A stretch of DNA of 64,000 bases from the NCBI RefSeq assembly GCF_900185715.1, contig NZ_FYAS01000006.1, positions 1 through 64,000 on the forward strand. Reading direction: 5' to 3'. This document shows, piece by piece, positions 7,908 through 52,084 of the stretch. The first letter of the stretch is position 1. The number at the start of each line of letters is the position of its first letter. The stretch is from Allobosea sp. CS1GBMeth4. GTDB taxonomy: Bacteria; Pseudomonadota; Alphaproteobacteria; Rhizobiales; Beijerinckiaceae. The notes under the pieces were generated by a model. The model did not search any database and was not told where the DNA came from. It was given only the letters and a program-made list of their open reading frames with translations. The position numbers and the translations under genes were made by a program.

Positions 7908-9320
7908 ATGCTGACGAAGCTCGCCGGCGCGGCGCTCCTGTTCCTTCTCCTCCCCGAGGCCGCCTTCGCTGCCGGCGATATCGGCGGCGCGAGCATGGGC
8001 GTCGCCTGGGCCCTGCCCTTCGCCGGCATGCTGCTCTCGATCGCCCTCGGGCCGGTGCTGTTTCCGCATTTCTGGGAGCTGAACTACGGCAAGTTCGCGG
8101 CCTTCTGGGCCGTGCTTGTGGTGGTGCCGCTGCTTGTCTTCCGCGGCGTCGATCCGGCGCTCGGCGCGCTGCTGCACACGGCACTGCTCGAATACATCCC
8201 CTTCATCATCCTGCTCTTCGCGCTCTTCACCATCGCCGGCGGCATCCTCATCACCGGCAACCTGCACGGCACCCCGGCCACGAACACGGCGCTGCTCGCG
8301 ATCGGAACGCTGATGGCGAGCTTCGTCGGCACCACCGGCGCCTCGATCATCATGATCCGCCCGGTGCTGCGCGCCAACGACAACCGGCGCTTCAACGTCC
8401 ACGTCGTCGTCTTCTTCATCTTCCTGGTCTCGAATATCGGCGGCTCGCTGACGCCGCTCGGCGACCCGCCGCTCTTCCTCGGCTTCCTGCGCGGCGTCTC
8501 GTTCTTCTGGACGACGACGCATCTGCTGCCGGAGACGCTGTTCGCCGTCGCCGTCCTGCTGGCGCTGTTCTACGGGCTCGACACCTATTACTTCCGCAAG
8601 GAGGAGACCTATCCGCCGCTGCGCGACCCGACGCCGGATCGCGCCATCAAGCTGTTCGGCAAGGTCAACATCCTCCTGCTCGGCGGCGTCATCCTCGCCA
8701 TCCTGATGTCGGCGAACTGGAAGCCGGGCGTTGTCTTCGACATCTATGGGGTTCATGTCGAGCTGCAGAACCTCGTGCGCGACATCGTCCTGCTCGGACT
8801 CGCCGGGCTCTCGCTCGTCCTGACGCCGAAGCCGGTGCGCGCCGGCAACGAGTTTTCCTGGGGGCCGATCAAGGAGGTTGCCAAGCTCTTCGCCGGCATC
8901 TTCGCCTGCATCATCCCGGTCCTGGCCATGCTTCAGGCCGGGCGCGACGGCGCCTTCGCCCCGCTGGTGGCGCTGGTCAGCCATGCCGACGGCAGCGCCA
9001 ACAACCTCGCCTATTTCTGGCTGACCGGCGGCCTCTCCTCCTTCCTCGACAACGCCCCGACCTATCTCGTCTTCTTCGAGCTCGCCGGCGGCAATCCGCA
9101 GATGCTGATGACGGCCGGCGCCCTGACGCTGACCGCGATCTCGGCGGGCGCCGTCTTCATGGGCGCCAATACCTATATCGGCAACGCCCCCAACTTCATG
9201 GTCTACGCCATCGCCAAGGACCGGAAGGTCGCGATGCCGAGCTTCTTCGGCTACATGCTCTGGTCGGGCGCGATCCTGATCCCGCTCTTCCTGCTGCAGA
9301 CGCTGATCTTCTTCCGCTGA
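7908..9320 (+). CDS. Sodium:proton antiporter (NhaD-like / ion transporter superfamily)
   Basis: 470 residues with an N-terminal hydrophobic segment ending in AFA and about 11-12 membrane helices. The stretch GTTGASIIMIRPVLRANDN and the loop SNIGGSLTPLGDPPLFLGF are characteristic of NhaD-type antiporters within the ion-transporter superfamily, and the second half repeats FLDNAPTYLVFFE and AGAVFMGANTYIGNAPNFM. It probably exchanges Na+ or Li+ for protons across the inner membrane. ATG 7908 is preceded by GGGAAGGGGCC. Transcribed alone, between an amidotransferase on the other strand and a repeat-filled gap. Confidence 0.85.
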   Translation: MLTKLAGAALLFLLLPEAAFAAGDIGGASMGVAWALPFAGMLLSIALGPVLFPHFWELNYGKFAAFWAVLVVVPLLVFRGVDPALGALLHTALLEYIPFIILLFALFTIAGGILITGNLHGTPATNTALLAIGTLMASFVGTTGASIIMIRPVLRANDNRRFNVHVVVFFIFLVSNIGGSLTPLGDPPLFLGFLRGVSFFWTTTHLLPETLFAVAVLLALFYGLDTYYFRKEETYPPLRDPTPDRAIKLFGKVNILLLGGVILAILMSANWKPGVVFDIYGVHVELQNLVRDIVLLGLAGLSLVLTPKPVRAGNEFSWGPIKEVAKLFAGIFACIIPVLAMLQAGRDGAFAPLVALVSHADGSANNLAYFWLTGGLSSFLDNAPTYLVFFELAGGNPQMLMTAGALTLTAISAGAVFMGANTYIGNAPNFMVYAIAKDRKVAMPSFFGYMLWSGAILIPLFLLQTLIFFR

Positions 9321-37617: not shown

Positions 37618-39774
37618 CTACCCGATCACATAGCAGTCGCAGCTCTCCGCCAGAGCCCTCGCCTCCTCGAGGTCGCCCGAGGCGCTGGCATGGATGGCGA
37701 ACAGCGGATCGCCCACCGCGACGGCATCGCCGAGATGGCGGCGCAGATCGATGCCCGCCGCCTTGTCGAACGGCGCTCCGGCCCGCCGGGCGATGCCGGC
37801 GACCGCCCAGCCGTCGATCTCCGTGACCACCCCCGACCTCGGCGCGCGCACCGTATGGACGAGCAGGCCGGGCGCGACCGGCGGCTCGCGCCGGCCCTGC
37901 GCATCGATGATCCGCTCGAAGGCGGCCCGCGCCGCGCCGGAGCGCAGCAGCTCCCGGGCCCGCTCGCGCCCGGCCGCGACCGAGCCGAGTGCCGGGTCCC
38001 AGGCGAGGATACGGCCGGCGAAGAACAGCGCCTTCTCGACCAGGTCGGCCGGCGCCTGCGGGTCGTTGTCGAGCACCCAGCCGACATCGCGGCATTCCAG
38101 CGCCGGGCCGATGCCGCGCCCGATCGGCGCCCTGCCATCGGTCGGGAAGGCCTGCACCACGAGGCCGAGCCCGGCGCCGACGGTCTCGAACAGCTGCGCG
38201 AGCTCGGCGGCCTCGGCCTCGCTCTTCAGCTTGGCGCGCGGGCCATAGGGCAGGTCGACGATGACGTGGGTCGAGCCCGCCGTCGCCTTCTTCGACAGGA
38301 TCGATGCCACCGACCAGCGGTTCGAATCGATGCCGAGCGGCCGGGTGATCGCGTTCATCACGTCGTCGACCACGGAGTGGTTCAGCCGCCCGTTCCAGGC
38401 GATCGAGCCGCGCGCGGCCTCGACGCAGGCGCGCAGCTCCTCCGGGTTCAGCTCGACGCGGGCGAGCGCCTCCATCGCATCGGCCGTGCCCGCCGCCGAG
38501 GTGATGGCGCGCGAGGAGGTCTTCGGCATCAGGAAGGCGCCGTGCGCCGCGACGATCGGCACGACGATCAGCGTGATCCGGCTGCCGGGAATGCCGCCCA
38601 TCGAGTGCTTGTCGACGACGATCCTGTCGGGCCAGCTGATCGTCGGGGCGAAGCGGGTGCGCACCCGCGCCAGCGCGACGACCTCCTCGTCGGAGAGCTT
38701 CTGCGTCGCCGCGACCAGGAAGGCCGCGACCTCGCCGTCCGGATAGCGCGCCTCGACAATGTCACGGATCAGCGTGTGGTACTGCTCCTCGCTGAGCTCG
38801 CCGCCCTGGATCTTGCGCGTCAGCGCGGCGCGGCTCTCCGGCGAGGGCGTGCGCCTGATCGTGACCTCGCTGCCTTCCGGCAGGCCGAGCTCGTCGAAGG
38901 CCTCCGCCGAGAGGCCGATCTCGTCGCCGGCGAGCAGCGCGGGCGAATCGACGACCTGCACGTCCGAGCGGATGCTGGCGCTGGAGCATGTTCCCCAAAA
39001 GTGGGAACCACTTTTGGGGTCAGACCATGCTCCGGCATTCTGAGTTGGCGCGAATTCTGCTCGTTCAGCCGATTTCGGCTGAACGGAAAGCGCGCCGACG
39101 CCCGAAATCTCGATCCGGCCCGGCCCGAGATAGTCGAAGCCGTTGACGATCTCGCCCCTGGCCGGGAGATAGGCGCAATGCGCCCGCCCGGCGAAGAGCG
39201 GCAGGCGGCGCAGCCGCATCGTGTTGGCGGCGGCCTCGACCGCGGCGACGAAGCGCTCGATTCCGATCTCGACGCTCTCGTCATTGCAGATCGTCGCCGC
39301 CCTGACCCCGTGGGGGCGTGGCTCGACCGTGCGCGACAGCCGCCTTTCGATCGCCTCGCCGCTCTCGCGCCCGCGCCCGGCGATGCGGGCGGCGAGCACG
39401 TCGGGCGGCGCGGTGACCTCGACGACGACGAAGCGCGGCAGGCGGGCGGCGAGCGCCGCGATCGTGGCGCGGGAGCCGTTGGCGATGACGTTGCGCCCGG
39501 TCTCGACCAGGCGCCTTAGCTCGGCCGGCAGGCCGTAGCGCAGGCCGTGGGCGCCCCAGGTGATCAGGAAATCGCCCTTGGCCTCGCGGGCGGCGAAGGC
39601 CTCTTCCGTCGCCGCCTCGTGATCCTCGCCGGGCGAGCCGGCCGGGCGGGTGACGACGCGCCGCGCGAAGACGTAGCGGCCGGTCGGTTCCAGCAGCTTG
39701 CGGGCGCCGTCGATCAGCGAGTCCTTGCCGGCCCCGCTCGGGCCGACGACGAGGAAGAAGGTACCGGGCCGCAT
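37618..39774 (-). CDS. Fusion of ribose-1,5-bisphosphate kinase (PhnN) and nucleoside-monophosphate phosphorylase
   Basis: 718 residues in one frame. Residues 1-186 are PhnN-like, with a P-loop GPSGAGKDS (11-19) and RRVVTRPAG; PhnN phosphorylates ribose 1,5-bisphosphate to PRPP. From about 187 the chain is a thymidine-phosphorylase-family enzyme of the archaeal AMP-phosphorylase kind, with an extra N-terminal domain and the motifs [12 protein letters not shown] and [19 protein letters not shown]; such enzymes release a base from NMP and give ribose 1,5-bisphosphate. One protein could thus turn NMP into base plus PRPP. A 34-codon palindromic repeat sits in frame at residues 231-264. It lies seven bases after nadC. 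An internal start at 39216 for a separate phosphorylase cannot be excluded. Confidence 0.82.
38983..39084. repeat. Palindromic repeat element inserted in frame within the phosphorylase gene
   Basis: 102 bp, exactly 34 codons. Outer arms GGAGCATG/CATGCTCC enclose the perfect 12-bp stem CCCCAAAAGTGG/CCACTTTTGGGG (38993-39019), and a second stem GTTCAGCCGA/TCGGCTGAAC ends at 39084. The first half matches the well-known dispersed rhizobial palindrome of the GGAGCATG...CATGCTCC type. The reading frame is kept. Confidence 0.85.
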
Positions 39775-40801: not shown

Positions 40802-40928
40802 ATCCGTGCCCTCGCCTCGGCTCGGGCCAGCGGCGCCCGGGGGGCGGGCAGATCCGTGGCCCGGCCTCGGTCTGGCGGGCGCCGCTGCGCCTCCGCCGTC
40901 TTGACTCGGGATGGCAGGCGCGCCAGTA

Positions 40929-40979: not shown

Positions 40980-42464
40980 ATGGCGCTGGACGAAGCGAGC
41001 CCGGTCGCGGACGACAAGATCCGCTGCGATGCCTGCCCGGTGATGTGCTTCATCAAGCCGGGCGCCGTCGGCGCCTGCGACCGCTACGGCAATGTCGCCG
41101 GCGAACTGGTGCGGATGGAGCCGCATATCGTGCTCGAGCGCACGCTGGCGCATGGCGGCGAGGTCGTTCCCTTCGCCGGTGCTCGCGAATGGGACGGCGA
41201 GATCGTGCATCAGCCGGGCACCTTCATCACCGCGATCGGCGCCGGCACCACCTATCCCGACTACAAGCCGGCGCCGTTCATCGTCTCGTCCGAGGTCGAC
41301 GGCGTCGACATGGTCACCGTCGTGACCGAGGGCATCTTCAGCTATTGCGGCGTCAAGGTGAAGATCGACACCGACCGCTTCCTCGGCCCCGAGCAGGCGA
41401 CGGTGCGCGTCGAGGGCGAGGCGATCGGCCACGTCACCACCGGCGAATACGGCTCCCAGATGCTCTCGCTCGGCGGCGTCCATCATCTCACCGGCGGCTC
41501 GAAGAAGGAGGGGCGCGTCACCTGCGACGCGCTGCTCCAGCTCAGCAACGGCAAGGCGGTCGAACTCGTGATCGACGGCGGCGAGACCGTGATCGTGCAG
41601 GCCGGCAAGCCGCCGATCGTCAACGGCATTCCCGAGAGCCGCATGCGCGTCGGCTGCGGCTCGGCGACGATCGGCATCTTCGCCAAGCAATGGCACGGCA
41701 AGGTCGACGAGGTCGTGGTCGTCGACGACCACATCACCGGCGTGCTCTCCGAGCACCAGGCCGGCAAGCTGCTCGGCATGCCGGCGACCGGCATCAAGCT
41801 GAAGGGCCGTCGCTCGACGCCGGGCCGCTATTTCCAGGTGGCGCAGCCCGGCACCGGCTGGGGCGGCACCAATATCAGCGACCCGCTCACGATTCTCGGG
41901 CCCTTCGACCCCAAGGTCGCCTGGCCCGGGCTGCGCCTGCTGATGGTTTCGACCACCGGCGAGCACGCCGCCTATTACGAGCTCGACGAGGCCCTCCTGC
42001 CGGTCGAGCGCGCGATGCCGCAGCCGCTGGTCGAGCCGGTCGAGCGCATCGCCGAGAATTGCGAGCCGGCGCTCTCGACCGTGCTGTTCGTCGGCGGCGC
42101 CGGCGGTTCGTTGCGCGCCGGCGTCACCGAGAACCCGGTCCGGCTGACCCGCTCGGTCAAGGACGCGCTGACCTATGTCAGCTGCGGCGGCGCGCCGGTC
42201 TATATCTGGCCGGGCGGCGGCATCACCTTCATGGTCGATGTCACGCGTCTGCCCGAGAACGCCTTCGGCTATGTGCCGACGCCGGCGCTGGTCGCGCCGC
42301 TCGAATTCACCATGACCAAAGCCGACTATGAGGCGCTCGGCGGCCATATGGACGCGATCCAGCCGCTGGCGGCGCTGAAGGGCGGCGGCCGCCTGCGCCT
42401 GCCGCAGCGCCCGGACAACCCCTGGCCGCTGGCGCCGGAGCCGCCGCGCCGCTCGCTGGGGTAG
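40980..42464 (+). CDS. hnr: 6-hydroxynicotinate reductase
   Basis: 494 residues. A cysteine cluster C16-x2-C19-x3-C23-x9-C33 at the N-terminus can hold an iron-sulfur cluster, and the body resembles Eubacterium barkeri Hnr, which reduces 6-hydroxynicotinate to 1,4,5,6-tetrahydro-6-oxonicotinate with ferredoxin electrons and contains covalently bound flavin. A segment GGSLRAGVTENPVRLTRSV (Thr383) resembles the Ser/Thr-containing loops modified by ApbE-type flavin transferases; that match is my inference. ATG 40980 follows GAGGATC. It is divergent from nadC and followed by UPF0280 and two PF06684 genes. Together with the enamidase it indicates the reductive nicotinate pathway. Confidence 0.85.
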   Translation: MALDEASPVADDKIRCDACPVMCFIKPGAVGACDRYGNVAGELVRMEPHIVLERTLAHGGEVVPFAGAREWDGEIVHQPGTFITAIGAGTTYPDYKPAPFIVSSEVDGVDMVTVVTEGIFSYCGVKVKIDTDRFLGPEQATVRVEGEAIGHVTTGEYGSQMLSLGGVHHLTGGSKKEGRVTCDALLQLSNGKAVELVIDGGETVIVQAGKPPIVNGIPESRMRVGCGSATIGIFAKQWHGKVDEVVVVDDHITGVLSEHQAGKLLGMPATGIKLKGRRSTPGRYFQVAQPGTGWGGTNISDPLTILGPFDPKVAWPGLRLLMVSTTGEHAAYYELDEALLPVERAMPQPLVEPVERIAENCEPALSTVLFVGGAGGSLRAGVTENPVRLTRSVKDALTYVSCGGAPVYIWPGGGITFMVDVTRLPENAFGYVPTPALVAPLEFTMTKADYEALGGHMDAIQPLAALKGGGRLRLPQRPDNPWPLAPEPPRRSLG

Positions 42465-42495
42465 GGCGATGTCGGTCATGCACGGAAGCTCACCC

Positions 42496-42705
42496 GTCAT
42501 TCCGGGGCAGGCCGCAGGCCTGAGCCCGGAACCCATGACCACAATCTTTCCGTCATGGTCGGGCTTGTCCCGACTATCCACGCCTTCGCTGGTCGAGTGG
42601 GGTGCTCGGGATGTGGATGCTCGCCACAAGGGCGAGCATGACGAGCTGGAACGGTGTCGTATTCATGGGTTCCGGGCTCTTCGCTGCGCGAAGCCCCGGA
42701 AAGAC
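42496..42705. repeat. Composite palindromic repeat, GTCATTCCGGGGC family, copy 2
   Basis: Arms GTCATTCCGGGGC and GCCCCGGAAAGAC at the ends, with inner GAGCCCGGAACCCATGA and ATTCATGGGTTCCGGGCTC. It fills the 276-bp gap between the reductase and the UPF0280 gene, which may therefore have its own promoter close to 42741 or be read through. Confidence 0.8.
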
Positions 42706-42740
42706 GCTACAGTTCCGCGCCTGCATGGCGAGGCCTAGCG

Positions 42741-43631
42741 ATGCGCTTCGAGGCCCCTTCCGCGCGGGTACTGCCGGATGGCCGGCGCCTGCTGTTGCAG
42801 CAGGGGCCGATCGACCTCGTCATCGAGGCCGTCGGCGAGCCGGACGCGGTCAAGGCCGCGCGTGAGGCCGCCATCCGACGCTTCGACGGCCTGCTGGCCG
42901 AGCTCTGCGGCGAGCTGCCCCTGCTGCGTAGGCCGGTCAGCCGGACGAGCCCGGTTCCGCTCGGCCAGGTCGCCCGGCGCATGCATGCGGCGGTCGGCCC
43001 CTTCGCCACCAGCGGCTTCATCACGCCGATGGCCGCCGTCGCCGGCGCGGTGGCGCAGGAGATCCTCGGCGTGATGAGCCGGGCCGCGCCGCTCCGGCGC
43101 GCCTATGTCAACAATGGCGGCGACATCGCCCTGTATCTGTCTGCCGGCGAGCAGTTCCGCATCGGGCTGATGAAACGGCCCGACCGGCCGGAATTCTTCG
43201 CCACGGCGACGATCCGGCCTGAGGACGGCGTCGCCGGCATCGCGACCTCCGGCTATCCCGGCCGCAGCTTCTCGCTCGGGATCGCCGAGGCTGTGACGGT
43301 GCTGGCGCCCACCGCCGCCATGGCCGATGCCGCCGCGACCGTGATCGCCAATGCGATCGACCTGCCCGGCCACCCGGCGGTCGAGCGCCTGCCGGCCAGC
43401 GCGATCCAGAGCGACAGCGATCTCGGCGAGCGGCTGGTCACCCGCGAGGTCGGTCCGCTGACACCGGACGAAATCGAAACCGCGCTCGCGGCCGGCCTCG
43501 CCGAGGCGGAGCGCCTGCGCGAAGCCGGCCTGATCGTCTCGGCCGCCATGCATCTCCAGGGCGTGAGCCGCGCGCTGGAGAGCCCTATGATTTTTCAAGA
43601 AAAGCCTGAGAGGAGACTGGCCCGTGCCTGA
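42741..43631 (+). CDS. UPF0280 family protein (ApbE-related)
   Basis: 296 residues of UPF0280, a family structurally related to the flavin transferase ApbE. Visible conserved parts are VGPFATSGFITPMAAVAGAVAQEIL, RRAYVNNGGDIALYL and IATSGYPGRSFSLGIAEAVTVLAP, the equivalents of ApbE's Gly-Gly-Asp and Thr-Ser-Gly blocks. Function is unproven. Placed directly after a reductase whose characterised homologue carries covalent flavin, it may be the enzyme that attaches it. ATG 42741 starts the conserved sequence. Its stop overlaps the next gene by eight bases. Confidence 0.88.
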   Translation: MRFEAPSARVLPDGRRLLLQQGPIDLVIEAVGEPDAVKAAREAAIRRFDGLLAELCGELPLLRRPVSRTSPVPLGQVARRMHAAVGPFATSGFITPMAAVAGAVAQEILGVMSRAAPLRRAYVNNGGDIALYLSAGEQFRIGLMKRPDRPEFFATATIRPEDGVAGIATSGYPGRSFSLGIAEAVTVLAPTAAMADAAATVIANAIDLPGHPAVERLPASAIQSDSDLGERLVTREVGPLTPDEIETALAAGLAEAERLREAGLIVSAAMHLQGVSRALESPMIFQEKPERRLARA

Positions 43632-44208
43632 GATCGCCGTCCGAAAATACGCCGTGACCGTGGAGGAGATCTTCCATGAGGGCGGCCCGGCCGCTTCGGT
43701 GCCGCTGAAGCGCGGCGCGGCGCTGGCCGTGATCGCCAACCCCTATGCCGGCCGTTATGTCGAGGACATCCAGGGCTTCATGGATGATCTCAAGCCCTTC
43801 GGTCTGCAGATGGCGCAGCGCCTGCTCGCGGCGATGGGCGGCGACGCCAGGGCGATCCAGGGCTACGGCAAGGGTGCCATCGTCGGCGCCGCCGGCGAGC
43901 TCGAGCACGGCGCGCTCTGGCATGTGCCGGGCGGCTACGCCATGCGCGAGCTGCTCGGCGACGCCAAGGCGATCGTGCCCTCGACCAAGAAGGTCGGCGG
44001 GCCCGGCACGCGGCTCGACATCCCCGTCACCCATGTCAACGCGTCTTACGTCCGCAGCCATTTCGACGCCTTCGAGATCGGCATCGCCGATGCGCCCAGG
44101 GCCGACGAATTGCTGCTCGCGCTGGTGATGACGACGGGCCCCCGCATCCATGCCCGCGTCGGCGGCCTCAAGGCGAGCGAGATCAAGGGCGAGGACGGCC
44201 TGCGATGA
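43624..44208 (+). CDS. PF06684 (amino acid synthesis family, DUF1185) protein, copy 1
   Basis: 194 residues from GTG 43624, overlapping the UPF0280 gene. Conserved blocks are AVIANPYAGRYVEDI, GYGKGAIVGAAGELEHGALWH, YVRSHFDAFEIGIADAPRADE and the end GGLKASEIKGEDGLR. The family name derives from an old report of an amino-acid synthesis role; the reaction is not established. The next gene is its paralogue. Translation coupling with UPF0280 and the reductase operon points to a role in handling nicotinate ring-reduction products or the reductase itself. Confidence 0.85.
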   Translation: MPEIAVRKYAVTVEEIFHEGGPAASVPLKRGAALAVIANPYAGRYVEDIQGFMDDLKPFGLQMAQRLLAAMGGDARAIQGYGKGAIVGAAGELEHGALWHVPGGYAMRELLGDAKAIVPSTKKVGGPGTRLDIPVTHVNASYVRSHFDAFEIGIADAPRADELLLALVMTTGPRIHARVGGLKASEIKGEDGLR

Positions 44209-44789
44209 AAGCGAGGATCCGCAAGATCGTCACCGTCCTCGACGAGACCCATAGCGAGCTCGGCCGCACCGTCTCGCCGCCGATCAGGCGCGCCGCCGCG
44301 GTCGCCGTGATCGCCAACCCCTTCGCCGGCAGCTATCAGGACGACCTCTCCGAGCTGATCGAGATCGGCGAGGAGCTCGGCGGCCTGCTCGGTCGCCATG
44401 CGCTCGCCGCGCTCGGCATCGACGGCGAGGCGGTCCAGGGCTATGGCAAGGCCGCCGCCGTCGGCGAGGACGGCGAGCTCGAGCACGCCGCCGCGATCCT
44501 GCATCCCAAGCTCGGCGCGCCCCTGCGCAAGCTGCTGGGCAAGGCGCCGGCGCTGATCCCGTCCTCGAAGAAGCGCGGCTCGCTCGGCGTCGTGCTCGAC
44601 ATTCCGCTCGGCCACAAGGCGGCGGCCTATGTCCGCAGCCATTTCGACGGCATGGAGGTCAGGGTCTCGGATGCCCCCCGCGCCGGCGAGATCGTCGTCG
44701 CGGTGGCGCTGACGAGCGGCGGCCGGCCCCTGCCGCGCGTCGGCGGGCTCACCCATGCCGAGGCGAAGGGCGAGGACGGGCTGCGATAA
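44205..44789 (+). CDS. PF06684 (amino acid synthesis family, DUF1185) protein, copy 2
   Basis: 194 residues, the same length as copy 1 and sharing the same blocks: AVIANPFAGSYQDDL, GYGKAAAVGEDGELEHAAAI, YVRSHFDGMEVRVSDAPRAGE and GGLTHAEAKGEDGLR. The ATG overlaps the stop of copy 1 (ATGA). The pair is a tandem duplication that has diverged clearly, so the two may form a heteromer. The function is unknown. Confidence 0.85.
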   Translation: MKARIRKIVTVLDETHSELGRTVSPPIRRAAAVAVIANPFAGSYQDDLSELIEIGEELGGLLGRHALAALGIDGEAVQGYGKAAAVGEDGELEHAAAILHPKLGAPLRKLLGKAPALIPSSKKRGSLGVVLDIPLGHKAAAYVRSHFDGMEVRVSDAPRAGEIVVAVALTSGGRPLPRVGGLTHAEAKGEDGLR

Positions 44790-45299: not shown

Positions 45300-45343
45300 T
45301 TACCGATCAGCTTGCGGTGCACGCCGATCGGAACGGGCTCTAG
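45224..45343. repeat. GAGCCGGATCCGATCAGATTG-family palindromic element at the 3' end of the dehydrogenase gene
   Basis: The ends CTCTAGAGCC and GGGCTCTAGCC are inverted, and the interior contains GATCAGATTGGATCAATCTGA and GAGACCGTTTTACCGATCAG. A related copy is at 56425-56477. The nicotinate dehydrogenase stop codon (45300-45302) and its last dozen codons fall inside it. Confidence 0.75.
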
Positions 45344-48300
45344 CCACCGCCGCCTCGATCCCCTCCCAGGCCGGCTTCTCCGGCGCGAAGCGCCCGCGCA
45401 GATAGGCCGTCAGCTCGGCGAGCTGCCGGTCGTCGAGGGCCGTCGCGAAGGAGGGCATCGAGCCGATGCCGTGCTGGCCGCCTTCGAGCAGCATGTTGAC
45501 GAGGTTGGTCGGCCGCGCCGCGTGCAGCTTCGTCGACAGGCCGAGCGCCGGGCCCGCATTGACGAGCGGGACGGCACGGCCGGTCTCGTGGCAGGCGGCG
45601 CAGGCGCCCTCGTAGAGGCGCGCGATCGCCGACGTCGCCGGGTTGGCGGCGGAGGCCGTCATCGCGTCGATGCGCATCGCCCGCCCGGCGGCGTCGGCCT
45701 CCGGCAGCTGTTCGCTCAGCGAGGCCAGGTAGACGGCCATCGCCCGGATATCGGCGTCGGGCAACTCCTTCAGCTCGGCGATCACCGACGCCATCGGCCC
45801 GGAAGCGTTGCCGTGACGAGGCGAGCTGCCGTTGCGCAGATAGGCGTAGAGCCCGGCCTCGCTCCAGGGCATCGGGCCGGCCGCGCGCCCGGCGAGCGCC
45901 GGCGCCTCCCAGCCCTCCGCCTCGCCCCCGGCGAGATAGGCGCTGCCGCCCTTTTCGGCGCCGAGCGCGTTGCGGGGCGTATGGCAGGCGCCGCAATGGC
46001 CGAGCCCGTCGACCAGATAGCGCCCGCGATTCCATTGGGCCGAGCGCGTGGGCTCGGGCGTCGGCACGCTCCCGCGGTTGAACAGCAGGTTCCAGCCGGC
46101 CATCAGCGGGCGCAGGTTGAAGGGGAAGGTCAGCCGGCTCGGCTCGTTCTCGCGGCGCACCGCCGGCTGCGACATCAGGAAGGCGTAGAGTGCCTGCAGG
46201 TCGGCCTCGCTCGCCCTGGCGAAGCTCGGATAGGGGAAGGCCGGATAGAGATGGCGGCCGTCGCGGTTCAGCCCGGCGCGCATCGCCCGTTCGAAGGCGG
46301 CATAGGACCAGCCGCCGATGCCGGTCTCCGGATCGGGCGTGATGTTGGTGGTCGTCACCGTGCCGAACGGCGTCTCCAGGGCGAGGCCGCCGGCATAGGG
46401 CACGCCGTTCCTGGCCGTGTGGCAGCTGGCGCAGGCGCCGAGCGCCGCCAGCTGCCGGCCGCGCTCGATCGTCGCCGCCGACCAGGCCGAGGGGTCCGGC
46501 CGGGCGACGGGCGCGATCGAAGGTGCGATCGCGAGCGAGACCGCGGCGAAGCTCGCGGCGCCAGCCAGGGCCGCGCCGAGCCTGCTCCACCAGGGCAGGC
46601 GTCTTGCCGGCTCGCGGGCCGGCGGTTTCGGCAGCGCGGTGCCGTTGAGGCCGGCGAGCACCCGCTCCGGCGTCAGCGGCAATTCGCGGAAGCGCACCCC
46701 GGTCGCATCAAAGACGGCGTTCACGATGGCGGCCGCGCTGGGAACGGAAGCCGACTCGCCCGCGCCCATCGGCGGCAGATGCTGGCGGTCCATCAGCATG
46801 ACGTCGATCGCGGGCAGTTCCGGGAAGGTCAGCACCGGATAGGAGCCCCAGTCGCGGCTGGCGACGGCGGTCGTCTGCGAGAAGGTCACCTCCTCGCGCA
46901 GCACCCGGCTGGTCGATTGCAGCACATTGCCGTGGATCTGGTGCGTCACCCCGGCGGGGTTGACCATCATGCCGGTGTCCTGGCCGACGGTGACCCGGCT
47001 GACCGTGACCTCCCCCGTCGTGCGGTTGACCGCGACATCGGCGACCCAGGCCGCCCAGGCCGCGCCGACCCCCGGCCAGCTGCCATGGACATAGCGCGCC
47101 TGGGCGAAGCCGCGGCCGCGCAGCATTTCGCCGTCCTGCTCCATGCGCGGGCCGACATGCGGCTGCCAGTTCGCCCGCTCGGCCGTCGCCCGCACCAGCT
47201 CGGCGGCGCGCTCGTCATTGATGTGGCGCAGGCGGAATTCGACCGGATCGACCCCGGCCTCGTGCGCGAGCTCGTCGATATAGCTCTCATGGGCGAACAC
47301 GTTCGGCATCGCCGAGACGCCGCGCAGCCAGGACGCCCGCACGATCGGCGGCATGTCATAGGCCGTCAGCCGCATGTTTTCGTAAGTGTAGGACGGCACC
47401 GCGGTGCGGTCGCCCATTCTGAGCGTCGCCGGCTGGTTCGGGACGCGCCCGGTCAGCAGCAGCGCCAGGGTCGGCGCGGCGTTGGACGGGTACCAGGTGT
47501 GGAAATCGTAGGCTTTCAGCGCGCCGCCCGGCCCGAGCCCGCCCTTGATCTCGATCAGCTGGGCCGCGCCCTTCGGCTCCCAGAGATGCTCCTGCTCTCG
47601 GGTGAGCTGGACGCGGACCGGCGCACCGACCGCGCGCGAGAGCAGCACGGCGTCGGCGACGACGTCGTCGGCGCAGTTGCGGCCATAGCAGCCCGCGGCC
47701 TCGAAGCGGATCACGTCGATCCGCTCCTTCGGCAGGCCGGTCAGCACGGCGAGATCGCTCTGCAGCGGATAGGGGTTCTGGCTGCCGGTCCAGACGGTGA
47801 TGCCGTCCTCGCGCACATCGGCGACGGCGCAGGACGGGCCGAGCGAGCCGTGCATGTGGTAGGGCCAGACATAAGTTCGGTCGAGCCGCCTCTCCAGGCT
47901 CTCCAGCGCGCCGTCGACATCGCCCTCCTCGGCGAGCAGGCGCGGCGTCGAGGGGTGCGCGCGCAGCGCCTGGCCGAGATCGGAGAGGTCTGGCGGCGTG
48001 AACGCGCGCCATTGCGTCTTGAGCTTCAGCGCAGCTTCCGCCGCCTGCTCCTCGCGCTCGGCGACGATGCCGATGAAATCGCCCTCGACCACGATCGCGC
48101 GGATGCCGGGCACGTCTGCGATCGAATCGCGCTCGACGCCGAGCAAGCTCCTGCCGACGAAATCGCCGGCGTCCATGCCGGCATAGGGCGGGCGGACCAC
48201 CCGTCCGTGCAGCATGCCGGGAACGCGGACATCATGGACGTAGGCGAAGCTGCCGGTGACCTTGGCCGGGATGTCGACCCGGGCGACCGAGCGGCCGACC

Positions 48301-48842
48301 AGTCTGTGCCGCTCCGCCTGCTTGAACTCGGCGCTCTCCGCCAGCGGCAGCAGGATGCGTTCGTTGGCGAGCAGCGTCGCGAGCCCGATCGCGGGGGCGG
48401 TCTCGCCCTTGCGCGCGATCACGCCGTCCTCGAGCGCGAGCTCGTCCTCGTCGCAGCTCAGCGCCGCGGCCGCGAGCGCGATCAGCCTGGCCCGGATCTG
48501 CGTCGCCGCGATCCGCATCGCGACCGAGGTGACCTGGATCGTCTCGCTGGCGATGGTCGGGCCCTGGTCCGGCGTATCGGCGGTGTCGCCGAGCACCATC
48601 TCGACGGCGCCGAAGGGAAAATCGAGCTCCTCCGCCACCATCTGCGCCAGCGCGGTGCGGATGCCGGTGCCGAGGTCGACATGGCCGCTGAAGGCGAGGA
48701 CGCGGCCTTCCGCCGTCAGGCAGACATGCAGATCGAGCCCGTCCTCGGATGTGGCGTCGGCGGCCGCGCCCTTGCGCGGCGCCACCACGGCGATGACCCC
48801 GGCGCGCTTCAGCAGCGTTTTGCGTGAGAGCGGCTCGCTCAT
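45300..48842 (-). CDS. nicB: Nicotinate dehydrogenase large subunit (molybdopterin domain fused to three cytochrome c domains)
   Basis: 1180 residues, close to the length of NicB of Pseudomonas putida. Residues about 1-740 are the xanthine-oxidase-family molybdopterin-binding part (GHVDLGTGIRTALAQMVAEEL, TGSFAYVHDVRVPGMLHGR, GVGAAWAAWVADV, MGAGESASVPSAAA). After a membrane helix (about 760-790) come three haem c sites, CASCH, CGACH and CAACH. It hydroxylates nicotinate at C6 with water and passes electrons through cytochrome c to the respiratory chain. ATG 48842 overlaps the small-subunit stop (ATGA). The last 12-13 residues are encoded by a palindromic repeat and are unlikely to be conserved. 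Confidence 0.9.
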   Translation of the reverse strand: MSEPLSRKTLLKRAGVIAVVAPRKGAAADATSEDGLDLHVCLTAEGRVLAFSGHVDLGTGIRTALAQMVAEELDFPFGAVEMVLGDTADTPDQGPTIASETIQVTSVAMRIAATQIRARLIALAAAALSCDEDELALEDGVIARKGETAPAIGLATLLANERILLPLAESAEFKQAERHRLVGRSVARVDIPAKVTGSFAYVHDVRVPGMLHGRVVRPPYAGMDAGDFVGRSLLGVERDSIADVPGIRAIVVEGDFIGIVAEREEQAAEAALKLKTQWRAFTPPDLSDLGQALRAHPSTPRLLAEEGDVDGALESLERRLDRTYVWPYHMHGSLGPSCAVADVREDGITVWTGSQNPYPLQSDLAVLTGLPKERIDVIRFEAAGCYGRNCADDVVADAVLLSRAVGAPVRVQLTREQEHLWEPKGAAQLIEIKGGLGPGGALKAYDFHTWYPSNAAPTLALLLTGRVPNQPATLRMGDRTAVPSYTYENMRLTAYDMPPIVRASWLRGVSAMPNVFAHESYIDELAHEAGVDPVEFRLRHINDERAAELVRATAERANWQPHVGPRMEQDGEMLRGRGFAQARYVHGSWPGVGAAWAAWVADVAVNRTTGEVTVSRVTVGQDTGMMVNPAGVTHQIHGNVLQSTSRVLREEVTFSQTTAVASRDWGSYPVLTFPELPAIDVMLMDRQHLPPMGAGESASVPSAAAIVNAVFDATGVRFRELPLTPERVLAGLNGTALPKPPAREPARRLPWWSRLGAALAGAASFAAVSLAIAPSIAPVARPDPSAWSAATIERGRQLAALGACASCHTARNGVPYAGGLALETPFGTVTTTNITPDPETGIGGWSYAAFERAMRAGLNRDGRHLYPAFPYPSFARASEADLQALYAFLMSQPAVRRENEPSRLTFPFNLRPLMAGWNLLFNRGSVPTPEPTRSAQWNRGRYLVDGLGHCGACHTPRNALGAEKGGSAYLAGGEAEGWEAPALAGRAAGPMPWSEAGLYAYLRNGSSPRHGNASGPMASVIAELKELPDADIRAMAVYLASLSEQLPEADAAGRAMRIDAMTASAANPATSAIARLYEGACAACHETGRAVPLVNAGPALGLSTKLHAARPTNLVNMLLEGGQHGIGSMPSFATALDDRQLAELTAYLRGRFAPEKPAWEGIEAAVARARSDRRAPQADR

Positions 48843-49330
48843 GGCGCCGCCATGTCCCGCCGCCTGCGCTCGGCTGCGAGCAGCACCGCCCTGACGATCT
48901 CGACATGGGTGCCGCAACGGCAGAGATTGTGCCGCAGCGCCTCGCGCACCTCCGCCTCGCTCGGGTCGGGCCTGGCGTCGAGGAAGGCCTTCGCCGCCAT
49001 CACCATGCCGGAGATGCAATAGCCGCACTGCGCCGCCTGCGCGTCGATGAAGGCCTGCTGCAGCGGGTGCGGCGCTTCGACGCTGCCCAGCCCCTCCAGC
49101 GTGACGATGTCGCGTCCTTCCGCCAGCCTGACCGGCAGGGCGCAGGCGCGCGCCGGCTGTCCGTCGACCAGCACCGTGCAGGCGCCGCATTCGCCGAGGC
49201 CGCAGCCGAATTTCGGGCTGTTGAGCGAAAGGTCGTTGCGCAGGAAGAACAGCAGCGGCGTCCGGGCTTCGCCCTCGACCTCATGGCTCGCGCCGTTGAC
49301 GCGAAGCGTAAAGCGCTTCGTCGTCCTCAT
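48839..49330 (-). CDS. nicA: Nicotinate dehydrogenase small subunit (two [2Fe-2S])
   Basis: 163 residues of the CoxS/XdhA-type iron-sulfur family. The plant-ferredoxin-like cluster is ligated by CGLGECGACTVLVDGQPARAC and the second by CGYCISGMVMAA and CRCGTH. It relays electrons from the molybdenum site of NicB to its haems. ATG 49330 is used because the fold starts there; a longer frame to 49480 would run over the operator and repeat. A MarR-type operator lies 59 bp upstream. Together with nicB this forms the first step of the pathway, nicotinate to 6-hydroxynicotinate. Confidence 0.92.
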   Translation of the reverse strand: MRTTKRFTLRVNGASHEVEGEARTPLLFFLRNDLSLNSPKFGCGLGECGACTVLVDGQPARACALPVRLAEGRDIVTLEGLGSVEAPHPLQQAFIDAQAAQCGYCISGMVMAAKAFLDARPDPSEAEVREALRHNLCRCGTHVEIVRAVLLAAERRRRDMAAP

Positions 49331-49388
49331 GGCTCGCCCAGGCAGGGCGAAGCGCGTCTGATCGTGCTGATCGTCACGGCCACCGAGA

Positions 49389-49406
49389 TCGTTCGTATAC
49401 GAATGA
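49389..49406. promoter_or_regulatory. MarR-type operator 4 (upstream of nicAB)
   Basis: TCGTTCGTATACGAATGA, 17 of 18 positions as in operator 1, 59 bp before the nicA start. Confidence 0.82.
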
Positions 49407-49451
49407 GAATAGTGACAAACCGGAGCGCGCCGCAAGCGGGATTTCCAAGTG

Positions 49452-49561
49452 CCCGTCATGCTCGGGCTTGACCCGAGCATGACGGGCCGGTGGGGCTCCA
49501 GCCTGCGGCTTCTCGTCCTGAGATTCCCGGGACTGCGCTGCGCTCCGCCCGGGAATGACGG
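49452..49561. repeat. Palindromic repeat pair between nicA and the enamidase gene
   Basis: CCCGTCATGCTCGGG (49452-49466) pairs perfectly with CCCGAGCATGACGGG (49472-49486); a second unit with GATTCCCGGGA and CGCCCGGGAATGAC follows to 49561. It may end the enamidase transcript. Confidence 0.75.
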
Positions 49562-49572
49562 CTAGGCCAGGT

Positions 49573-50769
49573 TCAGTGCTGGACCGACGGAAGCTTCTCC
49601 GCCGGCGGCGTGTTGCGGCTGATGCCGCTGCGCACGATGCCGTCGATCACGATCATGCCGATGCCCGGCAGGTCGCCGAGCTGGATCGAGTCGAGGAAGT
49701 TCGTCCCGGCGGAATGCTGGGCCTTGTCCATGAAGACGAAGTCGGCTGAGCGGCCGACCTCGATCAGCCCGCAATCGAGGCTGCGCATGCGGGCGGTGTT
49801 GCCGGTGGCGAAGCAGAAGGCGATCTCCGCCGGGACGTCGCCGAGCGAGGACAGCATCGAGACCATGCGGATGATGCCGAGCGGCTGCACGCCGGAGCCG
49901 GCCGGCCCGTCCGTCCCCAGGATGACGCGCTGCAGCTCGCCCATCTCGCGGGCGACGCGCAGCGTGTAGAGCGCGGCGCGCTCATTGCCGTTATGGACCA
50001 GTTCGAGCCCGCGCTTGCAGCCTTCGCAGATGCAGCGGATCTCCTTGTCCGGCAGAGCGGTGTGGCCGCCATTGATGTGGCCGACCACGTCGGTGTCGGC
50101 CTCCAGCACCACGTCGGCGCCGATCAGCCCGGAGCCCGGGATCGAGGGGCCGCCGGTGTGGATGGTCGACTGGATGCCGTATTTCCGCGCCCAGGCCACC
50201 ATCTCCTTCGCCCGCGCCCCGTCCTTGACCCCGCCCAGGCCGACCTCGCCGAGCAGCTTCACGCCGGCGTCGGCGAGGTCCTTGAAGTCCTGCTCGACCA
50301 TGCCGGGCTCGATCACCGGCGCGCCGGCATGGATCTTGACCCCGCCGGGGCGGAAGGCGGTGAAGGCGCGCTGCGCGTAGATGGCCATCGCCTTCAGCCC
50401 GACAATGTCCTTGGGCCGGCCGGGCGTGTGCACCTCGCCGGCCGAGATCATGGTGGTGACGCCGCCATGCATGGTCGAGTCGATCCAGCCGAGCTGGTTC
50501 TGGCGCGGCGTCCAGTCGCCGGCGACCGGGTGGACATGGCTGTCGATCAGCCCGGGCGAGAGCACCGTGCCGTTGGCGTCGATGACGGTGCCAGCGCCTT
50601 CGGCGTCGAGATCCTTGAAACGGCCGACAGCGGCGATCCGGCCGCCGATCGCGACGAGGGTGTCGGCGTCCAGGATCGGGCGCTCGATGTCGCCGGAGAG
50701 CATCAGGCCGATATTCTTCACCACCAGCTTGTGGGTGCTGCTGACCGTCGCCGCCTGCTGTTCAGCCAT
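49573..50769 (-). CDS. Enamidase (1,4,5,6-tetrahydro-6-oxonicotinate hydrolase)
   Basis: 398 residues of the amidohydrolase superfamily. Metal ligands: GLIDSHVHP (HxH), HTGGPSIPG and GHINGGHTALPD (His), and ILGTDGPAGSG (Asp). Overall it resembles Eubacterium barkeri enamidase, a binuclear Fe-Zn enzyme that opens 1,4,5,6-tetrahydro-6-oxonicotinate to ammonia and 2-formylglutarate. The assignment is strengthened by 6-hydroxynicotinate reductase in the same cluster. ATG 50769 is preferred; the frame extends to 50856 without conserved sequence. It is divergent from the ferredoxin gene, with operator 5 between them. Confidence 0.87.
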   Translation of the reverse strand: MAEQQAATVSSTHKLVVKNIGLMLSGDIERPILDADTLVAIGGRIAAVGRFKDLDAEGAGTVIDANGTVLSPGLIDSHVHPVAGDWTPRQNQLGWIDSTMHGGVTTMISAGEVHTPGRPKDIVGLKAMAIYAQRAFTAFRPGGVKIHAGAPVIEPGMVEQDFKDLADAGVKLLGEVGLGGVKDGARAKEMVAWARKYGIQSTIHTGGPSIPGSGLIGADVVLEADTDVVGHINGGHTALPDKEIRCICEGCKRGLELVHNGNERAALYTLRVAREMGELQRVILGTDGPAGSGVQPLGIIRMVSMLSSLGDVPAEIAFCFATGNTARMRSLDCGLIEVGRSADFVFMDKAQHSAGTNFLDSIQLGDLPGIGMIVIDGIVRSGISRNTPPAEKLPSVQH

Positions 50770-50857
50770 CGTATCCGCCCTGTCGCCCGTTGCTGGAAAT
50801 CCGCCGCCATCCTCATCGCCGCAAGCCCGATTGACAAGCGTGGCGGGAAGCGCCATA

Positions 50858-50921: not shown

Positions 50922-51251
50922 ATGCCTTACGCCGTCACGAGCGCCTGCATCCGCTGCAAATACATGGATTGCGTCGAGGTCTGCCCGGTCGACTGCTTCT
51001 ATGAGGGCGAGAACATGCTGGTCATCCATCCGGACGAGTGCATCGACTGCGGCGTCTGCGAGCCCGAATGCCCGGCCGAGGCGATCGTCGCCGACGGCGC
51101 CGACGGGGCAGAGCCCTGGCTGGTGCTGAATGCGCGCCTGGCGCCGCTCTGGCCGAACATCACCCGGAAGGGCGAGCCGCCGGCCGATGCCGACGATTGG
51201 AAGGGAATACCGGACAAGATCGCCCTGCTTTCCGAACGCCCGGCATTGTGA
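50922..51251 (+). CDS. fdxA: Seven-iron ferredoxin (FdxA type)
   Basis: 109 residues. Cysteines in [21 protein letters not shown] and [12 protein letters not shown] can bind one [3Fe-4S] and one [4Fe-4S] cluster, and the C-terminal extension ([17 protein letters not shown]) is characteristic of FdxA. It is a soluble low-potential electron carrier. ATG 50922 follows GAGGATCG. Its place behind operator 5 and before a ferredoxin reductase suggests that it delivers electrons to 6-hydroxynicotinate reductase, which is ferredoxin-dependent in Eubacterium barkeri. Confidence 0.93.
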
Positions 51252-51310
51252 TATCTGGCGGCCGGCATCCGATAATCTACTTTTCGCTAGACTATCTGAG
51301 GATCGACGAG

Positions 51311-52084
51311 ATGAGCAATTTCTACGAAGAGCGCGTGCTCTCCGTCCATCACTGGACCGATACGCTCTTCAGCTTCACGACGACCCGCGATCAGAGCTTC
51401 CGCTTCAAGAACGGCCAGTTCACCATGATCGGGATCAAGGTCGGCGAGAAGCCGCTCCTGCGCGCCTACAGCGTGGTCAGCACCAATTACGACGAGAACC
51501 TCGAGTTCTTCTCGATCAAGGTTCCTGACGGCCCGCTCACCTCGCGCCTGCAGAATCTCCAGGTCGGCGACCCGATCATCATCGGCAAGAAGGCGACGGG
51601 CACGCTGGTGCTCGACAACCTCAAGGACGGCAGGCGGCTGTTCCTGCTCGGCACCGGCACGGGGCTGGCGCCCTTCCTGTCGCTGATCCGCGATCCCGAG
51701 ACCTATGAGCGCTACGAGAAGGTCGTGCTCGTGCATGGCTGCCGCCAGGTCGCCGAGCTCGCCTATGGCGAGCGCATCACCAAGGACCTGCCGAACGACG
51801 AATTCCTCGGCGAGATGATCCGCAACCAGCTCGTCTACTACCCGACCGTGACGCGCGAGCCCTTCCGCAATCGCGGCCGCATCACCGACCTGATCACCTC
51901 GGGCCAGCTCTTCAGCGATCTCGACCTCGCGCCGTTCGATGCCGAGGGAGACCGTTTCATGCTCTGCGGCAGCCCGCAGATGCTGGTCGACCTCAAGCGG
52001 ATCTTCGACGAGCGCGGTCTCGCGGAGGGCAACCAGGGCGAGCCCGGCGACTACGTCATCGAAAAGGCCTTCGTCGAGCGCTGA
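51311..52084 (+). CDS. fpr: Ferredoxin-NADP(+) reductase
   Basis: 257 residues of the bacterial Fpr type. FAD binding by LRAYSVVST, NADP binding by LLGTGTGLAPFLSLIRDP, and FMLCGSPQML near the end. It moves electrons between NADPH and ferredoxin. The gene starts 59 bp after fdxA on the same strand. In this context it would run in the direction NADPH to ferredoxin to nicotinate-ring reduction, allowing an aerobe to power a reductive step. The two genes may also serve other pathways. Confidence 0.93.
   Translation: MSNFYEERVLSVHHWTDTLFSFTTTRDQSFRFKNGQFTMIGIKVGEKPLLRAYSVVSTNYDENLEFFSIKVPDGPLTSRLQNLQVGDPIIIGKKATGTLVLDNLKDGRRLFLLGTGTGLAPFLSLIRDPETYERYEKVVLVHGCRQVAELAYGERITKDLPNDEFLGEMIRNQLVYYPTVTREPFRNRGRITDLITSGQLFSDLDLAPFDAEGDRFMLCGSPQMLVDLKRIFDERGLAEGNQGEPGDYVIEKAFVER

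Follow-up and report, generated by a model that had tools for sequence, protein, structure and literature searches.

What does a protein of the uncharacterised family UPF0280 do beside a 6-hydroxynicotinate reductase (Hnr)? The question is raised by a 64,000-nucleotide stretch of Allobosea sp. CS1GBMeth4 (contig NZ_FYAS01000006.1, positions 1 to 64,000; hereafter the window). Here a 494-residue Hnr is encoded at 40980..42464 (open reading frame, ORF, from the ATG at 40980, with an alternative in-frame ATG upstream at 40911), and a UPF0280 protein at 42741..43631 (ATG 42741 being the most probable start, stop through 43631), both on the + strand. A sequence-only reading of these neighbours had proposed that UPF0280, as a relative of ApbE, attaches flavin to Thr383 of the reductase. 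The analysis presented here makes the partnership of the two proteins close to certain, and flavin transfer by UPF0280 is the leading candidate mechanism, the best of several readings.

Hnr and DUF39 as partners of UPF0280

The first gene was assigned to Hnr from its conserved residues, its homology to annotated Hnr (63–74% identity to 26 plasmid-borne homologues, many of which carry that annotation) and its place in a nicotinate-type gene cluster; such clusters also surround the homologues on two of the 26 plasmids. Its likeness to the nicotinate systems of Eubacterium barkeri, Azorhizobium and Bradyrhizobium is traced via a 42%-identical clostridial Hnr homologue (locus L134) in a nicotinate-type cluster, E. 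barkeri Hnr itself being compared only through relatives. The second gene product belongs to the UPF0280/COG2122 family, which also goes by the name DUF375, scoring 391.4 bits against NCBIfam model NF003322 (cut-off 290).

The co-occurrence of the two families was surveyed across 240 genomes from the class to which the window belongs, with single-sequence queries at E 0.001, a threshold that very distant UPF0280 proteins could escape. Hnr was detected in 38 genomes and UPF0280 in the identical 38, while the other 202 had neither; the chance of such identical sets would be 10^-44 if the genomes were independent, which they are not. Among 60 Hnr loci with flanks (repeats of one genome merged by hand), UPF0280 was located downstream on the same strand within ~520 nt in 54, and 4–5 kb upstream in two (L091 and L102). 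It was unseen at the remaining four (L089, L093, L104 and L105), where 11, 0, 397 and 119 bases, respectively, were left downstream. Hnr also occurs on 26 of 72,556 plasmid records, and UPF0280 adjoins it on all 26. The neighbourhood noticed in the window is thus far beyond chance. Among pattern matches on viral contigs, tblastn found no relative of Hnr or UPF0280.

A pattern scan of genome contigs yielded 25 loci, 14 of them with Hnr and none of these titled clostridium. Clostridia were therefore reached by class searches around G472, the Oscillospiraceae genome of locus L097, whose class was on that account taken as Clostridia. After exclusion of 18 of the 20 matches, which covered the N-terminal Cys motif alone, a real Hnr was counted in two of 391 genomes (G743 and G844). 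In G743 (L134) the UPF0280 gene abuts or overlaps hnr, in a cluster that also encodes molybdopterin dehydrogenase subunits, FAD-binding and [2Fe-2S] subunits, an amidohydrolase, a hydroxyisobutyrate dehydrogenase-like protein and an AA_synth protein; from its gene content, we read this as an E. barkeri-like nicotinate cluster. Both clostridial Hnr proteins start with 4Fe-4S ferredoxin domains, in contrast to the window Hnr, which has a single four-Cys motif and a ferredoxin-NADP reductase-like gene in its cluster.

The same clostridial class revealed a second partner. DUF39 (PF01837, HcyBio, L-aspartate semialdehyde sulfurtransferase or L-ASST) was found in 27 of 196 genomes and UPF0280 in the identical 27, downstream of DUF39 in 26 loci and on a separate contig in the remaining one. 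Each of the 27 loci also has an ORF carrying two ferredoxin motifs, either behind DUF39 or, in L153, fused with it. These pairings agree with the published genetics of COG2122, which, according to the available text, is needed together with DUF39 and NIL/ferredoxin for homocysteine formation in Desulfovibrio vulgaris, where the fitness of COG2122 and DUF39 is correlated at r = 0.98 (PMC5764234). The homocysteine-pathway proteins (DVU1097, whose structure is PDB 2o34; DvMF_0044; MA1715) are of the same family as the window protein (2o34 against the UPF0280 profile, E 3e-32). They resemble it as strict companions of a ferredoxin-linked enzyme, placed 3' of that enzyme in the clostridial loci, and differ in having DUF39 plus ferredoxin as partner in place of Hnr.

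Every UPF0280-bearing genome in the two samples (65 of 65) has Hnr or DUF39. Because it is partnered with Hnr in the window's class and with DUF39 in clostridia, UPF0280 serves two systems, both of them ferredoxin-linked. What is new beyond the sequence-only reading is that a single ApbE-like protein has two alternative partners. That reading had expected the Hnr connection to give UPF0280 a function; a genetic role of COG2122 in homocysteine synthesis had in fact been described already (in the available part of PMC5764234). The name UPF0280, unlike COG2122, was not met in the literature searched. DUF39 matches were absent from the window genome and from three further Hnr genomes that were checked (G475, G479 and G480), and UPF0280 there therefore does not serve homocysteine synthesis.

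The two kinds of UPF0280 can be told apart. A tree splits them, 18 versus 27 sequences (100/100), although the bootstrap had yet to stabilise and L134 sits on a very long branch. Position 171 is Cys in 27 of 27 DUF39-type sequences and Ala in 39 of 40 Hnr-type sequences (Cys in the other one); position 178 is His in 26 of 27 and Arg in 39 of 40, respectively.

Homology between the two partners would have been a simple reason for their sharing UPF0280, and this was rejected: core-to-core hhalign of Hnr and DUF39 gave a probability of 0.1% (E 0.42, versus E 0.53 for the reversed control), with shallow alignments that remote kinship might escape. Whole alignments matched in the ferredoxin segments alone. 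The best weak match placed the GGAGGS..AGVT loop of Hnr on the GGAQGY..EGTQ loop of DUF39 and was not significant. The predicted Hnr model (pLDDT 76) gave no Foldseek match at E 0.001 or better. Residues 123–210 weakly resemble the GcvT C-terminal barrel (best Z 4.5 by VIA fold comparison; Pfam GCV_T_C matches part of the same region at 16.7 bits, below its cut-off), a hint from the model at such a fold that speaks against no other family.

Two single occurrences deserve mention. A contig titled Acidobacteria (L105) carries, at 75–1673 on its - strand, an Hnr that closely resembles the window-class Hnr proteins (913 bits), which reflects either a transfer or wrong binning of the contig. On a plasmid of Hydrogenophaga BPS33 (L080), a UPF0280 gene (7914–8846) is located near IS1071, of which the plasmid carries four copies, and lies beside genes for a Rieske protein and a PDR/VanB oxidoreductase; the plasmid gave no Hnr match (the chromosome was not searched). 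This is the sole UPF0280 seen here without a known partner.

UPF0280 and the ApbE superfamily

The kinship with ApbE claimed in the sequence-only reading was borne out over the full length of the protein. The UPF0280 model (pLDDT 92.4) matched 2o34 with Z 19.6 and chains of ApbE, Ftp and FmnB with Z 14.2–16.9 over 205–222 residues, the next unrelated fold reaching 7.8. The top ApbE chains were those of Treponema pallidum Ftp (Z 16.6–16.9), Z gaps of less than 1 being ties. A UPF0280 profile scored 96.4% against that of 21 ApbE sequences (E 1e-9, 96 columns; reversed control 0.1%). In contrast to ApbE, Ftp and FmnB (PF02424), UPF0280 remains under Pfam detection in 21 of the 22 members scanned, which gave no match; the clostridial Hnr-associated protein alone passed the ApbE cut-off (27.9 versus 25.6 bits).

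Conservation was examined in 67 UPF0280 sequences, 40 of the Hnr type and 27 of the DUF39 type. The ApbE motifs GGD, ATSG and ADAxAT are all present in UPF0280: GGD and Asp199 are conserved in all 67, Ser173 in 66, and Ala101 and Thr203 in 65 each. In the window, Ser173 of the ATSG motif is encoded at 43248..43250 and the ADAxAT motif, with Asp199 and Thr203, at 43326..43340 (both + strand). The metal-site elements (GGD, Ser of ATSG, Asp and Thr of DxxxT) are thus retained, and the profile aligns them with those of ApbE. The Mg ligands of FmnB are Asp301 and Thr305, its FAD contacts include Asp184 and Lys190, and Ser257 and His273 are also named (available text of PMC8906456). By motif alone, with no FmnB sequence in the comparison, Ser173 was equated with Ser257, and Asp199 and Thr203 with Asp301 and Thr305. 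The positions of FmnB Asp184 and Lys190, placed by spacing just outside the ApbE-aligned stretch, are occupied by Thr, Ser or Gly98 and by Ala104; the Asp184 position is not Asp in one ApbE sequence (L163) either.

The catalytic His is a different matter. In Vibrio cholerae ApbE, the H257G exchange abolished FMN transfer, so that His257 is described as essential (PMC5655446, in the part available). This residue (His273 in FmnB) is missing in UPF0280, where the His segment forms a gap in the profile alignment. At the shortened loop stands Ser181 (43272..43274, + strand; Ser in 66 of 67), and no His column is common to the two UPF0280 types. Since it fails this one tested defining feature, UPF0280 is not to be filed as an ApbE transferase; judged by its sequence, it is a distinct branch of the ApbE superfamily, with the metal-site signature intact and the catalysis altered.

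Proposed flavin transfer and competing roles

We give an even chance to the reading in which UPF0280, an enzyme of the ApbE superfamily, is dedicated to the maturation of Hnr and loads FMN onto one of the Ser or Thr residues of the reductase. It builds on the demonstrated genetic partnership, ApbE fold and conserved metal-site motifs. UPF0280 would act in the cytosol, where Hnr appears to reside, unlike the flavinylation by ApbE described for extracytosolic electron transfer (in the sources as available). FAD would be bound at the Mg-diphosphate site, and its FMN moiety moved into covalent linkage with Hnr, where the flavin would carry electrons from the Fe-S clusters to 6-hydroxynicotinate. 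The Hnr of E. barkeri reportedly holds covalently bound flavin. Flavin, whether bound covalently or just supplied, would suit each of the two partners, as both are ferredoxin-linked reductive enzymes and the fold of UPF0280 is that of flavin transferases.

The acceptor would probably lie in the conserved loop GGS-x-R-x-G-x-(T/C)-x-x-P-x-x-(L/I)-T of Hnr, as Ser377 (42108..42110), Thr383 (42126..42128) or Thr390 (42147..42149), all on the + strand. The RAGVTENP segment is present and its Thr383 codon is ACC. At this position, the acceptor site favoured in the sequence-only reading, 30 of 30 Hnr loci from the window's class have Thr, as do 16 of 17 diverse aligned sequences. The exception, the Hnr of the clostridial nicotinate cluster (L134), has Cys, and Thr383 therefore cannot be the acceptor in every Hnr. 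Ser377 and the alternative acceptor Thr390 are invariant (17 of 17). So are Cys16, Cys19, Cys23 and Cys33 of the N-terminal CxxCxxxC...C motif (41025..41078, + strand), the presumed ligands of a cluster probably of the [4Fe-4S] type, and His251, His259, Cys226 and Cys361. From these residues, an ApbE-independent linkage of flavin to His or Cys of Hnr may also be considered.

A separate ApbE, the agent that would have undercut the proposal, cannot be the general one that attaches flavin to Hnr, because 19 of the 38 Hnr genomes, including the single-contig genomes G197 and G203, yielded no canonical ApbE; 15 of the 19 reach 90% completeness or more and do not exceed 5% contamination. In these genomes something else would therefore have to attach the flavin.

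Several observations weigh against flavin transfer by UPF0280. Besides the lost catalytic His and the Cys at position 383 in L134, the window genome has two ApbE genes, and clostridial G743 has one in addition to UPF0280. A second clostridial Hnr-like gene (923–2449 in L108, genome G844, which was not among the 60 loci above) has no adjoining UPF0280. It follows a methylaspartate ammonia-lyase gene rather than nicotinate genes, while the UPF0280 of G844 sits on another contig in a DUF39 - UPF0280 - MTHFR group; L108 may encode a paralogue that perhaps reduces a different substrate. The literature covered contains no measured flavin in DUF39, nor covalent flavin in Hnr of the window's class. 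In the available text of PMC5764234 the homology of COG2122 seemingly falls short of the flavin-binding region, and in that of PMC12068725 the methanogen protein MA1715 (COG2122) is termed a sulfur-trafficking protein. Cys171 of the DUF39-type proteins points in the same direction. Of the original flavin-transferase proposal, then, the dedicated partnership and the ApbE kinship stand; the missing essential His, the variable Thr383 and the prior role of COG2122 tell against it.

In a wider and more tentative form of the proposal, UPF0280 would represent a cytosolic, His-less ApbE branch that places covalent FMN on both Hnr and DUF39. On this view DUF39, too, would carry covalent flavin, through which electrons of the NIL/ferredoxin partner would reach the thioaldehyde, and COG2122 would take part in 'sulfur trafficking' indirectly. 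If the cofactor is covalent FMN, this would hint at how DUF39 performs its reductive step. Known flavin transferases would be joined by one that works in the cytosol and catalyses by different means, and a large uncharacterised family could be annotated.

The principal competitor, which we consider unlikely, follows the role proposed for MA1715/COG2122 with DUF39: UPF0280 would be a sulfur or Fe-S trafficking protein that brings sulfide or persulfide to the Fe-S sites of Hnr. MA1715 mutants have a sulfide-dependent phenotype and DUF39 a cysteine persulfide (PMC5764234 and PMC12068725, in the parts available). Fe-S proteins are involved with either partner, through the Cys motifs or 4Fe-4S domains of Hnr and through the two-motif ferredoxin ORF of the DUF39 loci (27 of 27), and all 27 DUF39-type UPF0280 proteins carry Cys171. 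Hnr-type UPF0280, however, has no conserved Cys (the fullest Cys column reaches 10 of 40, and Cys171 is found in 1 of 40), its conserved residues are those of an Mg-phosphate site, and nicotinate reduction does not require sulfur transfer. Fe-S assembly, moreover, is normally carried out by ISC or SUF. Since UPF0280 strictly accompanies Hnr, an enzyme that moves no sulfur, the sulfur-trafficking explanation is weakened and a common cofactor is indicated.

Less probable again is the supply of flavin without a covalent bond, with UPF0280 acting on behalf of Hnr as an FAD pyrophosphatase or FMN chaperone, in the manner of T. pallidum Ftp. The loss of the catalytic His with retention of the metal site would fit lost transfer and retained metal-dependent hydrolysis, and the ApbE chains with the highest fold scores are those of Ftp, which is described as an FAD pyrophosphatase in the source as available; structure titles, however, name the same protein as bifunctional, an FMN transferase as well as an FAD pyrophosphatase. 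A dedicated FMN supplier beside one enzyme would also be unusual, and the covalent flavin ascribed to E. barkeri Hnr argues for attachment. Finally, UPF0280 lies in a catabolic cluster among pathway enzymes, as do the AA_synth genes that likewise accompany the clusters examined, yet it is improbable that it is an Hnr-complex subunit or a nicotinate-pathway catabolic enzyme with no part in maturation. In 27 of 27 genomes the family strictly accompanies DUF39, which belongs to a biosynthetic pathway, and the two settings are easier to explain by a common auxiliary task than by a common reaction on nicotinate.

Other features of the locus

The gap between hnr and the UPF0280 gene measures 276 nt in the window, larger than in most relatives, and contains an inverted repeat (42495..42706, no strand assigned) with 44-nt arms at 42495–42538 and 42663–42706 that are 80% complementary. 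Over about one third of its length the gap is similar to sequences found on 19 plasmid records (18 from Rhizobium), which in the ten rows listed have no annotated genes.

Two AA_synth (PF06684) paralogues follow UPF0280 on the + strand, the first (43624..44208) overlapping its end and the second at 44205..44789. Two likewise come after UPF0280 on plasmids L081 and L082, and one is encoded in the clostridial cluster L134; the AA_synth proteins are possibly a pathway enzyme. Further downstream, on the - strand, are genes for a molybdopterin subunit with cytochrome c domains (45300..49190), which from its cluster would be nicotinate dehydrogenase-like, the [2Fe-2S] subunit of the dehydrogenase (48839..49480), and an amidohydrolase (49573..50856) that is, by its cluster, a candidate enamidase. 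They are followed on the + strand by a ferredoxin-NADP reductase-like flavoprotein (51038..52084), a possible electron donor; a gene annotated as ferredoxin--NADP reductase also occurs in two related clusters on plasmids.

Upstream of hnr, beside nadC, a single ORF on the - strand (37618–39774) combines PhnN (ribose 1,5-bisphosphokinase; TIGR02322, 185.6 bits, cut-off 156) with a thymidine/AMP phosphorylase-like protein (NF003338, 590 bits, cut-off 434), and its product is a possible fused ribose-phosphate enzyme.

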